DNA from: Erysipelotrichaceae bacterium
GTDB lineage: Bacteria; Bacillota_I; Bacilli_A; Erysipelotrichales; Erysipelotrichaceae
Length of the DNA stretch: 64,000 nt
Direction of reading: 5' to 3'
Assembly: GCA_017473265.1 (NCBI GenBank)
Contig: JAFULQ010000017.1
Coordinates: 1-64,000, forward strand
Below are positions 59,725-63,805 of the stretch, one piece after another (positions within the stretch are counted from its first letter, which is position 1; each line of letters opens with the position of its first letter). The position numbers were made by a program, and so were the translations under genes. The notes beneath the pieces are model-generated. The model saw only the letters and a program-made list of their open reading frames with translations, was not told the origin of the DNA and made no database searches.

Positions 59725-61059
59725 ATGAGAAAATTTTTAGCAATTTTAGCTGCCAAGTTGGTCATTGTTGTTGGTAAGCTTGTGAATAAAGGAAGTTCTT
59801 TACCAGGGGATATTGCCATGCGTGTGGATCCAAATGTTTTAAGTAAGATTGAGATTCCAAAGTTATCAATTGCAGTAACAGGTACTACTGGTAAAACTTC
59901 AACTACACAAACAATTGCGAAAGTATTTGAAGAGTGTGGTTATAAAGTGGCGCATAACTTAAGTGGTGCGAACTTAATTGGTGGGGTCGCAACATTATTG
60001 TTAGATAGTGTTACTTTAACTGGTAAGTGTAAAAAAGATGTATTGGTATTAGAAGTAGATGAACGTTATGCAAAGATTGTGTTTAAATATTTTAAACCAA
60101 ATTATTTTGCGATTACGAATTTGTCTCGTGACCAATTGGCTAGACATGGTCATTATGATGTTGTGTATGATGATATTGCTAGAGTAATTAGTGATGATAT
60201 GCATTTATTATTGAATGCGGATGATCCTTTTGTTTGTAAGTTAGCACAAAATCATAAGGGTAAAGTTACATATTTTGGTATTGGTGAACATGAGAATGTA
60301 GAAAAAGAAGTGTTGATGGATACTTTGGATTTGGCATATTGTCCTGTTTGTCATTCTAAGTTGGTATTTGATTATTATCATTATGGAAATTTGGGTAAGT
60401 ATTCTTGTCCAAATCATGATTTTGATCGTCCTGTTTGTGATTATGAAGTAACGAGTATTGATATGAATAAGCATCGTTTTGTGATTAATGGTGCAGTGAA
60501 TGTTGCGATTCAACATGATATTATTTATAACATTTATAATAACTTGGTTGTATATGCAGTAAGTCAATTGTGTGGTTTGGATAATGGTAAAGTGTTATCT
60601 TGTTTAGAATCTTTTAATTTTACAGTAAAACGTTTTGATGAATTTGTGGTTGATGGACGCAAAGGATATATTCTTACAAGTAAAAATGAGACGCCAATGT
60701 CTTATAATCAATCATTAGCGTATGTTCATAAGGATAACCAATTAAAAACAGTTGTTGTGGGCTTTAAACGTGTTTCTGGGCGTTATGAACTTAAAGATTT
60801 GTCTTGGTTGTGGGATGTAAACTTTGAGTTATTAGATAATGAAACAATTGATAAAGTGGTGTGTGTAGGTCCATATGCGGATGCATTGGCTTCTCGTATT
60901 TATCATGCAGGTATTGATGCGAATAAAATCATTTTAGAACCTGTACCAGAAAATACATTAAAAACGGTAAAAGAACAAACAAAGGGTACGGTATATGCGA
61001 CTGTATACTTTGATATGGCTAAAGAAATGACTCGTTTGGTAGAAAGTGAGGCTAACTAA
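59725..61059 (+). CDS. murT: MurT, Mur-ligase subunit of lipid II isoglutaminyl synthase
   Basis: A 444-aa ATP-dependent ligase that, with GatD, amidates the D-glutamate alpha-carboxyl of lipid II. P-loop AVTGTTGKTSTTQ (50-62), Mur-ligase middle domain, a zinc-ribbon insertion near 206-231 with CPVC and SCPNH (three cysteines plus His231 where the usual ribbon has a fourth Cys), and the C-terminal DUF1727 domain (VGPYADALASRIYHAG). An N-terminal hydrophobic stretch may attach it to the membrane. It overlaps the gatD-like gene by one base. Confidence 0.93.
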   Translation: MRKFLAILAAKLVIVVGKLVNKGSSLPGDIAMRVDPNVLSKIEIPKLSIAVTGTTGKTSTTQTIAKVFEECGYKVAHNLSGANLIGGVATLLLDSVTLTGKCKKDVLVLEVDERYAKIVFKYFKPNYFAITNLSRDQLARHGHYDVVYDDIARVISDDMHLLLNADDPFVCKLAQNHKGKVTYFGIGEHENVEKEVLMDTLDLAYCPVCHSKLVFDYYHYGNLGKYSCPNHDFDRPVCDYEVTSIDMNKHRFVINGAVNVAIQHDIIYNIYNNLVVYAVSQLCGLDNGKVLSCLESFNFTVKRFDEFVVDGRKGYILTSKNETPMSYNQSLAYVHKDNQLKTVVVGFKRVSGRYELKDLSWLWDVNFELLDNETIDKVVCVGPYADALASRIYHAGIDANKIILEPVPENTLKTVKEQTKGTVYATVYFDMAKEMTRLVESEAN

Positions 61060-61763
61060 TGAAATTAACAATTGCACATTTATATTATGATATTGCGAAT
61101 TTATATGGTGAAGCTGGCAATATAACGGTATTGTCTCATTATTTACAAGACCAAGGGGTTGAAGTGGAAATTAAAAAAGTATCGTTAAAAGAAGAATTCT
61201 CATGGAATGATTACCAATTTGTATATATTGGTGCTATGACTGAAAATAACTTGCGTATTGTATTAGAGGATTTAAGAAGATATACGAAAGATATTCAAGA
61301 ATATTTAGCTAAGGGTGGTTATTTATTAGCGACTGGTAATGCATTTGAGATGTTTGGAAATTATATTGATCAAATTTCTGAAAAGGGATTAGGTATTTTT
61401 AGTTATCAAACGAAGAAATTAGAAAAACGTTTAATGAGTGAAGTGATTTTGGAAAATGGCGAACATGATGTAGTTGGTTTCCAAAACCAAATTAGTGTTG
61501 TAACAAATGTAGAACATCCTTGGTTTGTTGGTGTTAAACAAGGAATGGGTGCAAATGATGAACATGCATACGAAGGTGTTTGTGAAAATCATTTCTATGG
61601 AAGTTATGTAGTAGGTCCTTTATTAGCTAGAAATCCATATTTAACAAAGTGGTTTGTGAAGGAATTGTTACAATTTTATGGTGAAAATCATGAATATAAA
61701 GAGATTTCGTATGCTTTAGATGAGCAAGCGTATGAAAGTTATAAAAAAATCATAAAAAATTAA
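61059..61763 (+). CDS. GatD-like partner of MurT lacking glutaminase residues
   Basis: A 234-aa protein with the GatD framework: LTIAHLYYDIANLYGEAGNI at the start and GPLLARNPYLTKWF near the end. GatD normally frees ammonia from glutamine with a Cys in TICGGYQFLG and a His in YLHGPILPKN (S. aureus). Here the corresponding segments read LLATGNAFEMFG (Gly93 for Cys) and YVVGPLLARN (Val185 for His), and the GGGSDREQ loop is GAMTENNL. It is therefore predicted to be a pseudo-glutaminase kept as a structural or ammonia-channel partner. Tightly coupled to murT. Confidence 0.85.
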   Translation: MKLTIAHLYYDIANLYGEAGNITVLSHYLQDQGVEVEIKKVSLKEEFSWNDYQFVYIGAMTENNLRIVLEDLRRYTKDIQEYLAKGGYLLATGNAFEMFGNYIDQISEKGLGIFSYQTKKLEKRLMSEVILENGEHDVVGFQNQISVVTNVEHPWFVGVKQGMGANDEHAYEGVCENHFYGSYVVGPLLARNPYLTKWFVKELLQFYGENHEYKEISYALDEQAYESYKKIIKN

Positions 61764-61849: not shown

Positions 61850-61926
61850 CGGGATGTAGCACAGCTTGGTAGTGCACCTGATTTGGGATCAGGGGGTCGC
61901 AGGTTCAAATCCTGTCATCCCGACCA
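61850..61926 (+). tRNA. tRNA-Pro (TGG)
   Basis: Acceptor CGGGATG/CATCCCG, anticodon TGG, encoded CCA. First of a four-gene cluster. Confidence 0.95.
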
Positions 61927-61929
61927 TTT

Positions 61930-62006
61930 GGCGGGATAGCTTAGCTGGTTAGAGCGCTCGGTTCATACCCGGGAGGTCGTGAGTTCGAATCTCACTCCCG
62001 CTACCA
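61930..62006 (+). tRNA. tRNA-Met (CAT), elongator type
   Basis: Anticodon CAT, acceptor GGCGGGA/TCCCGCT with a first G-T pair. It lacks the C1:A72 mismatch of initiators and resembles the Bacillus elongator tRNA-Met. Confidence 0.88.
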
Positions 62007-62046
62007 GTTTTTAAAATTTGTTTGTAGTGAATTCTAAGGAATTCTC

Positions 62047-62123
62047 GGACCCTTAGCGCAGTTGGTCAGAGCTACCGGCTCATAACCGGTTGGTCGTAGG
62101 TTCGAGTCCTACAGGGTCCACCA
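62047..62123 (+). tRNA. tRNA-Ile2 (CAT, lysidine type)
   Basis: Anticodon loop CTCATAA and acceptor GGACCCT/AGGGTCC match isoleucine tRNAs whose C34 is changed to lysidine by TilS, so it reads AUA. tRNA-Met is the alternative; the loop favours Ile2. Confidence 0.8.
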
Positions 62124-62128
62124 TATAC

Positions 62129-62219
62129 GGAGGAATACCCAAGTGGTTGAAGGGATCGGTCTTGAAAACCGACAGGTCGTGAGAGCGGCGCCTGGGTTCG
62201 AATCCCAGTTCCTCCGCCA
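62129..62219 (+). tRNA. tRNA-Ser (TGA)
   Basis: 91-base class II tRNA with long variable arm, anticodon TGA, acceptor GGAGGAA/TTCCTCC, discriminator G, encoded CCA. Confidence 0.95.
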
Positions 62220-62230
62220 TTCTAAAAATT

Positions 62231-62253
62231 AAGCCTTGTGAAAGGCTTTTTTT
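62231..62253 (+). terminator. Terminator of the four-tRNA cluster
   Basis: AAGCCTT and AAGGCTT (62231-62237 with 62242-62248) and T run. Confidence 0.85.
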
Positions 62254-62311
62254 ATTGTTAAAAATAGAAAATAGGTATATAATCACATTTGGTTTTTAGG
62301 AGAGTGAGACT

Positions 62312-63109
62312 ATGTTTAAGAAAATAGGTTTGCGTACAATTAAAACAGGTATTGCGGTAACGTTATCTATACTTGTTTCAAATATCTTACGTTTAGAATA
62401 TCCATTCTTTGTGGCTATGACATCGATTATTTCTATGGATAAGACGGCGATGAATTCTATGAAAATGGGAAGAAATCGTATTATGGGAACTTTCATTGGT
62501 GCGATTGTTGGTATTTTGTTAGCTTATGTAGATCGTGGTAATCCATTCTTATGTGGTATTGGTATTATTATCATGATTTTGATTTGTAATGCTTTGAAGT
62601 TAAATGGTTCAATTGCGATTGGCGGTATTGTTTTATTAGCGATTATGGTACATACAGATAAGACTCCAATTTTCTATGGATACAATCGTTTGTTAGATAC
62701 AATTGTGGGAGCTGGTGTTGCGTTATTTGTTAACTGTACAATTTTCCCTTATTATAATGTCAATCGTTTGGATGATATAGTTATTAAGATGTGGCATCAA
62801 TCAGATAAGATTTTAGATGCATTAAAAAATGATAAAGAAATTGATTTAAGTCAAATTCATTATGAAATGAAAGTTATCGAAAATGAATTAGATTTATATG
62901 AAAAAGAAATTTTATTAAGAAAGAAAAAAGAATTGGTGCAAAAATTAAGACGACATCATGAAATGACTCATAAATTATTATTTGAAATGGATGTTTGTCA
63001 ATCAGTTGATCGTTCTGTAAATCCTGAAGTGTTTAATTATCATTATCAACGTGTACATGCTATTTATGATAATTATATTAATGAATTACAAGCTAAATAT
63101 ATCAATTAA
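62312..63109 (+). CDS. FUSC/aromatic-acid-exporter-like membrane protein
   Basis: A 265-aa protein with four to six helices in the first 150 residues (LRTIKTGIAVTLSILVSNIL, GRNRIMGTFIGAIVGILLAY, RLLDTIVGAGVALFVN) and a charged helical cytoplasmic tail. This matches the ArAE_1/YgaE-like FUSC group of small putative exporters. Substrate unknown. Ribosome site TAGGAG. Single gene between two tRNA clusters. Confidence 0.85.
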   Translation: MFKKIGLRTIKTGIAVTLSILVSNILRLEYPFFVAMTSIISMDKTAMNSMKMGRNRIMGTFIGAIVGILLAYVDRGNPFLCGIGIIIMILICNALKLNGSIAIGGIVLLAIMVHTDKTPIFYGYNRLLDTIVGAGVALFVNCTIFPYYNVNRLDDIVIKMWHQSDKILDALKNDKEIDLSQIHYEMKVIENELDLYEKEILLRKKKELVQKLRRHHEMTHKLLFEMDVCQSVDRSVNPEVFNYHYQRVHAIYDNYINELQAKYIN

Positions 63110-63139
63110 AAGAAGAATGAAAAAATTCTTCTTTTTTTG
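63107..63139 (+). terminator. Terminator after the FUSC-like gene
   Basis: AAAAGAAGAAT and ATTCTTCTTTT pair across a short A-rich loop and run into T residues; overlaps the stop codon. Confidence 0.83.
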
Positions 63140-63242
63140 TAAAAAAATACTTGCATTATGTAATTGATTGTTGTATTATAAACGAGGTCGAAATCTTACG
63201 AAATAAATTCAAAAAAGATTTTGAAAAAAATTAAAAAAAGTG

Positions 63243-63271
63243 TTGACATGATGTTCATTACATGATATATT
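63243..63271 (+). promoter_or_regulatory. Promoter of the six-tRNA cluster
   Basis: Consensus TTGACA, 17-base spacer, TATATT with TG just upstream; about 25 bases before tRNA-Val. Confidence 0.82.
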
Positions 63272-63295
63272 ATTAAGGCACTAAACAGTGAAGAT

Positions 63296-63371
63296 GGAGG
63301 TTTAGCTCAGTTGGGAGAGCATCTGCCTTACAAGCAGAGGGTCGGCGGTTCGAGCCCGTCAACCTCCACCA
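63296..63371 (+). tRNA. tRNA-Val (TAC)
   Basis: Anticodon TAC, acceptor GGAGGTT/AACCTCC, encoded CCA. Confidence 0.96.
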
Positions 63372-63383
63372 TTTTTATGAAAT

Positions 63384-63459
63384 GCCGGATTAGCTCAATT
63401 GGCAGAGCAACTGATTTGTAATCAGTAGGTTGTAGGTTCGAGTCCTATATCCGGCACCA
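63384..63459 (+). tRNA. tRNA-Thr (TGT)
   Basis: Anticodon TGT, acceptor GCCGGAT/ATCCGGC, encoded CCA. Confidence 0.96.
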
Positions 63460-63467
63460 TTTTTTTC

Positions 63468-63552
63468 GGGGAGGTAGCGAAGAGGCTAAACGCGACTGAC
63501 TGTAACTCAGTTCCCTTTGGGTTCGACAGTTCGAATCTGTCCCTCCCCACCA
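63468..63552 (+). tRNA. tRNA-Tyr (GTA)
   Basis: 85-base class II tRNA, anticodon GTA, acceptor GGGGAGG/CCTCCCC, encoded CCA. Confidence 0.95.
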
Positions 63553-63561
63553 TTTACATGA

Positions 63562-63637
63562 TGGGGTGTAGCCAAGCGGTAAGGCACCAGACTTTGACTC
63601 TGGCATTTCCCTGGTTCGAATCCAGGCACCCCAGCCA
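63562..63637 (+). tRNA. tRNA-Gln (TTG)
   Basis: Anticodon TTG, acceptor TGGGGTG/CACCCCA, discriminator G, encoded CCA. Confidence 0.95.
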
Positions 63638-63646
63638 TTTATAACT

Positions 63647-63722
63647 GATCCCTTAGCTCAGTTGGTAGAGCATCTGACTTTTAATCAGAGGGTCGGGCGT
63701 TCGAATCGCCCAGGGATCACCA
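63647..63722 (+). tRNA. tRNA-Lys (TTT)
   Basis: Anticodon TTT, acceptor GATCCCT/AGGGATC, encoded CCA. Confidence 0.95.
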
Positions 63723-63731
63723 TTTCTTTTT

Positions 63732-63805
63732 GCGGATGTAGTTCAATGGTAGAACTTCAGCCTTCCAAGCTGACTACGCGAGTTCGATTCTCGTCATCCG
63801 CTCCA
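63732..63805 (+). tRNA. tRNA-Gly (TCC)
   Basis: Anticodon TCC, acceptor GCGGATG/CATCCGC, discriminator T, encoded CCA. Last of the six-gene cluster. Confidence 0.95.

Follow-up and report, generated by a model that had tools for sequence, protein, structure and literature searches.

The window, a stretch of 64,000 nucleotides of Erysipelotrichaceae contig JAFULQ010000017.1, carries a gene pair in which a MurT ligase with an intact ATP/Mg core adjoins a GatD that has lost its glutaminase residues. The data suggest, with a probability of about 0.48, that the two proteins form an ATP-dependent ligase of two subunits that joins a nucleophile other than ammonia from glutamine, probably an amino acid, and in which the pseudo-GatD serves as a structural partner. 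The loss of the glutaminase in GatD is ancient and clade-wide, not local. The features of the pair were as follows.

59725..61059, + strand: MurT-like Mur ligase that keeps an intact ATP/Mg catalytic core but has a remodelled donor-side loop (PF08353, PF08245, alignment)
60064..60066, + strand: Arg114 of MurT (S. aureus position 112), a new Arg beside the Mg-binding D112-E113 (alignment)
60127..60153, + strand: MurT R135-D-Q-L-A-R-H-G-H143, which corresponds to RDQMDRFGE, the putative ammonia-channel loop of S. aureus MurT (alignment, PMC6085368)
60340..60417, + strand: MurT zinc-ribbon ligands C206, C209, C228, and H231 (alignment)
61059..61763, + strand: pseudo-GatD, class I glutaminase fold without the catalytic Cys/His (TGN clade, subtype T1; ORF, alignment, model)
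61230..61253, + strand: residues 58-65, GAMTENNL, where S. aureus GatD has the oxyanion loop GGGSDREQ; the conserved Glu of the clade is E62 (alignment)
61335..61337, + strand: Gly93 codon at the catalytic Cys94 position, within the motif T92-G93-N94-A95-F96-E97 (alignment)
61611..61613, + strand: Val185 codon at the catalytic His189 position, VGP for HGP (alignment)

The pseudo-GatD ORF encodes 234 amino acids and overlaps the end of the MurT ORF (59725-61059) by one base. Alignment with S. aureus GatD bore out the original prediction that every glutaminase signature is gone: C94 is replaced by G93, H189 by V185, Q98 by E97, and GGGSDREQ by GAMTENNL, and the oxyanion-loop motif GGG(S/A)D of GatD reads GAMTE in the window protein. 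The protein had been named GatD from its framework and gene pairing, and this identity held. It matched PF07685 (GATase_3) with 48.5 bits (cut-off 27), its significant phmmer matches among solved structures were MurT/GatD complexes and GatD only, and the gene adjoins murT. An AlphaFold model (26 sequences, pLDDT 95.4) matched structures 9sq9, 6h5e, 6gs2, and 6fqb with Z 29-30 and an rmsd of 1.7-2.0 over 222-232 residues, while the next-best glutaminases reached Z 18, far under the solved GatDs. The NCBIfam GatD model (NF045636) gave 102 bits against a 400-bit cut-off, which is uninformative as an identity test because intact clostridial GatDs also score under 400 bits; none in a 249-genome sample reached it. 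Ten tRNA genes in two clusters lie just downstream of gatD (window 61850-63805), and a small membrane-protein ORF (62312-63109) lies between the clusters.

The other three genomes in the genus have the same catalytic state, so the loss is common to all four. A scan of named genomes retrieved 80 loci, none of which has Cys or His at the catalytic positions. In nearly all of these, TGN[A/S] replaces CGG(Y)Q, and almost all adjoin a MurT. Their sources are Bacilli, Erysipelotrichaceae, Clostridia, Oscillospiraceae, a Coriobacteriales MAG, and Khoudiadiopia massiliensis, an isolate of the Peptoniphilaceae; most relatives are MAGs. Among the carriers, Vescimonas fastidiosa MM35 is cultured and named, and its GatD bears the annotation "hypothetical protein". 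In an IQ-TREE phylogeny, 82 TGN rows were split from 27 intact rows by one branch of length 1.03 with support of 100/100. The TGN rows, together with the actinobacterial TGN-type row L332, also grouped in a second tree, which was quicker and left out the active-site columns; this tree requires the Cys state to change four times in all. The clade contains two subtypes, T1 (29 rows, including the window) and T2 (58 rows, mostly Clostridia, including V. fastidiosa).

Across 87 TGN rows, where alignments of distant rows are approximate and counts are of sequences rather than independent events, the pocket is strongly conserved: T93 in 84, G94 in 85, N95 in 86, E98 in 79, E63 in 81, and R128 in 86, with GP190-191 and N196 present in all. 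Cys was found at position 94 in 0/87 rows and His at 189 in none. No Cys or His column exceeded 39% occupancy, and the catalytic pair has therefore not been relocated elsewhere in the fold of the TGN clade. No second GatD was found in the genome of the window, and no intact GatD was seen in the genomes carrying the TGN clade (0/60), none of which combined an intact with a TGN pair. More than one copy occurred in 9/60 of these genomes; the second copies fetched were all of the TGN kind, often T1 with T2. In one of them (G358, locus L216, also L076), a tandem MurT-pseudoGatD(T1)-MurT-pseudoGatD(T2) is followed by an ATP-grasp ligase gene (PF14397). Some genomes of the window's family had no MurT/GatD match. 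Between the genome of the window and genome G003, dN/dS was 0.11 for GatD and 0.03 for MurT, indicating purifying selection. Sequencing error or a recent pseudogene was ruled out by this value and by the clade-wide conservation. The suggestion that GatD is a pseudoenzyme is thus strongly supported, the loss being ancient, clade-wide, and under selection, without a second gatD as rescue.

The MurT of the window matched PF08353 (MurT_C) and PF08245 (Mur ligase middle domain). As had been noted from the sequence, it keeps the P-loop (GTTGKT) and most of the zinc ribbon, which is Cys3His against the canonical Cys4. The acids are E110/D112/E113, and the residues that mark a MurT in S. aureus numbering, used for all clade comparisons (P-loop, E108/D110/E111, N85, and K315), are all present. 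Among the partner MurTs of the clade (83-85 sequences), the G-x-G-K P-loop, N80, G83, N85, E108, D110, E111, N130, D134, R138, and K315 are retained, and N163, D166, and N267 nearly always. Residues around the donor side have changed. Compared with 27 intact MurTs, the clade has lost D137, E141, N312, G319, and ADG346-347; it has gained Arg at 112 (72/83, against 0/27 in the intact pairs) and His at 141 (72 partners), where Glu is invariant in the intact MurTs. Asp at 349, the third residue of the triad, occurs in 29 of about 84 partners; the window MurT keeps it as D358 and has lost the surrounding ADG. Residues 133-141 form the loop proposed by Morlot et al. as part of the ammonia channel (PMC6085368), and D349 contacts His189 of GatD (PMC6113224). 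The catalytic core on the acceptor side of MurT is thus conserved, and the donor side has changed in a concerted way: it is rebuilt and has gained near-invariant residues, with no sign of relaxation there.

The chemistry of the pair, including the identity of the nucleophile, we infer from these sequence patterns. MurT would still phosphorylate a carboxyl group on the lipid-linked precursor of peptidoglycan; the likeliest one is the alpha-carboxyl of D-Glu, as in intact MurT/GatD. The GatD subunit would no longer split glutamine, so the attacking amine would not be ammonia from glutamine, and GatD would probably stay as a required partner for the structure of MurT; S. aureus MurT physically needs GatD even when ammonia is supplied (PMC3266927). 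The nucleophile attacking the acyl phosphate would most likely be an amino acid bound at the remodelled donor side of MurT, and its addition would be the step with which a type B interpeptide bridge at D-Glu has to begin. His141 could equally deprotonate ammonium. The original prediction had set free ammonia or another donor against a new role for the pair; these two options were not separated, and the data lean to another donor.

Free ammonia is the main rival to the amino-acid reading, although it is distinctly the less probable of the two. It holds that D-isoglutamine is still made from free cytoplasmic ammonium with GatD as a structural activator, the acidic GatD pocket or His141 of MurT helping to bind or deprotonate ammonium. 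Rumen and gut are ammonia-rich habitats, and many members of the clade come from them; E63 and E98 are new conserved acids in the GatDs of the clade, and no genome was seen with both an intact and a TGN pair, which is what a functional replacement would predict. S. aureus MurT with GatD C94G amidates lipid II with NH3 at pH 8.5, GatD still being needed, but the same pair fails with ammonium at pH 7.5 (PMC3266927). The loss of an ammonia channel, moreover, should relax MurT and not fix a new Arg and a new His. A contrast set was obtained from the low-scoring GatDs of 249 clostridial-phylum genomes. In four loci (L252, L255, L261, and L262), GatD lacks Cys and often His, while MurT keeps DGxDxSW and, in the readable cases (L252, L255, and L261), the DQLDRYG loop. 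As with the S. aureus C94G mutant, a canonical MurT beside a simply Cys-less GatD is what simple ammonia use would predict, and such lineages, as natural ammonium users, would argue against ammonium as the donor in the TGN clade. In three further loci (L253, L254, and L256), MurT lacks the Mg-binding D110 and E111, and both subunits are possibly dead; their GatDs read TGSS with HGP kept. The TGN clade differs from both groups. Finally, the same loss is seen in Microbacteriaceae, whose D-Glu alpha-carboxyl carries the cross-bridge.

We regard as improbable a recruitment of both subunits to some other reaction, such as one at a different carboxyl or on a non-peptidoglycan substrate, or to regulation, in which the GatD pocket would sense a ligand. 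The pocket residues are new yet strongly conserved, and the genomes with both subtypes, once in tandem before the ATP-grasp ligase gene, suggest more than one reaction. The Mur-type acceptor-side residues (G83, N85, D110-E111, and the N-x-D-D loop) are nevertheless unchanged, and a putative MurJ/SpoVB-like flippase gene upstream in four loci (L085, L099, L104, and L120) fits a lipid-II-linked substrate. A pair decaying after amidation was abandoned is very improbable and already largely refuted. A few lineages (L253, L254, and L256) do look dead in both subunits, but the window's genus is under purifying selection, the MurT core is invariant over 83 partners, and the clade is a single one spread over several phyla.

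The amino-acid reading draws on a second family. Sampling of the phylum to which a Coriobacteriales genome belongs turned up three GC-rich genomes with Cys-less GatDs, G861 among them; by 16S, G837 and G861 lie near Micrococcales. In the family of G861, taken as Microbacteriaceae, 52/62 GatDs lacked Cys94 and 33 of these kept His; absence counts were left out for GC-rich genomes, in which the first-look candidates were scored in part. In the genome assigned to Rhodoluna lacicola (G886), the one GatD found has Ala in place of the Cys, and the adjoining MurT has its P-loop and acids intact; the wall of R. lacicola MWH-Ta8 was measured as type B2beta (PMC4156110). The GatD of the genome assigned to Tropheryma whipplei Twist (L333, G891) has Ser at that position; T. 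whipplei is a sister of Microbacteriaceae (PMC6113628). Arg133 of MurT was Arg in 53/53 intact actinobacterial pairs and was replaced in 56/63 Cys-less pairs, the seven that keep it including TGN-type members. GatD was intact in Nocardia, Nonomuraea, Tsukamurella, and Streptomyces, as were the remaining readable GatDs of an order-wide sample. Around the Cys-less pair of small Microbacteriaceae genomes (L335 and L348), the gene order is sigA-murT-gatD-parE. An intact pair, resembling the minority of intact Microbacteriaceae pairs, lies on a Leifsonia shinshuensis plasmid (L362, NZ_CP043642.1), adjoining a VanY-like M15 peptidase gene.

The Cys loss in Microbacteriaceae is independent of that in the TGN clade. 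Type B cross-linking has reportedly been known since Schleifer and Kandler in 1972; in type B walls, the bridge begins at the alpha-carboxyl of D-Glu, which is the carboxyl that MurT activates. The same loss in a family with cross-links starting at D-Glu makes the pair a candidate bridge maker, and the addition of an amino acid to this carboxyl, as a type B bridge ligase, is what we propose. The broader idea that MurT with a glutaminase-dead GatD starts type B bridges, that it arose separately in the TGN clade and Microbacteriaceae, and that in two-subtype genomes the pairs add successive residues is more tentative than the main reading. Any chemistry shared by the two groups is an analogy, because the MurT residues changed differ between them.

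The nearest relatives of the window bear the family name Erysipelotrichaceae, and this family includes the type B1delta genera Holdemania and Erysipelothrix (PMC4062643). Several T2 genomes have a sole MurE with the meso-DAP motif DNPR. This motif is typical of walls with direct 3-4 cross-links. Type B walls as the explanation for the whole TGN clade were therefore not supported, and what is attached may vary from one lineage to another. The distribution of DAP epimerase did not tell the groups apart. Two MurE homologues are encoded in the genome of the window (L150, G000:C24:64181-65545; L163, G000:C24:157763-159067), and their specificity motifs are unusual: one has EEDPR, and the other, which precedes mraY in the dcw cluster, has DNSR. 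In two related MAGs (G335 and G336), MurE genes lie in tandem, with DNPR plus DDLH/DDPH.

The open-licence literature searched named no enzyme as attaching the bridge to the alpha-carboxyl of D-Glu and yielded no description of a glutaminase-less GatD. The pair, which is widespread and has kept the half that activates the carboxyl but not the half that supplies ammonia, is a concrete candidate for the type B bridge enzyme. The presence of MurT/GatD cannot be read as amidation of D-Glu, and this caution touches inferences on NOD ligands, antibiotic targets, and the wall chemistry of gut and soil bacteria.

Compared with the lipid II isoglutaminyl synthase MurT/GatD of S. aureus and S. pneumoniae, the window pair is alike in gene pairing, order, overlap, and GatD fold, and its MurT shares the P-loop, Mg-binding acids, and SWxxD motif, with a zinc ribbon that is Cys3His; in contrast, its GatD lacks the catalytic Cys, His, and oxyanion loop, and the donor-side loop and ADGxD interface of its MurT are remodelled. 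It resembles S. aureus GatD C94G with MurT in that Gly replaces Cys and GatD is a non-catalytic partner (PMC3266927), but that protein is a laboratory point mutant, whereas the window pair is changed also in the His, the oxyanion loop, and MurT. Like the Microbacteriaceae pairs, it sets a Cys-less GatD beside a MurT with an intact ATP core and an altered donor loop. The Microbacteriaceae GatDs, however, form a separate tree branch and often keep His, and their MurTs appear to lack the zinc-ribbon cysteines and are changed at R133, without the R112/H141 gain of the TGN clade. The archaeal MurT-like proteins of pseudomurein producers are likewise MurT relatives without an active GatD, but these archaea have no GatD gene at all, whereas the window pair retains a GatD-fold partner (PMC11915815).
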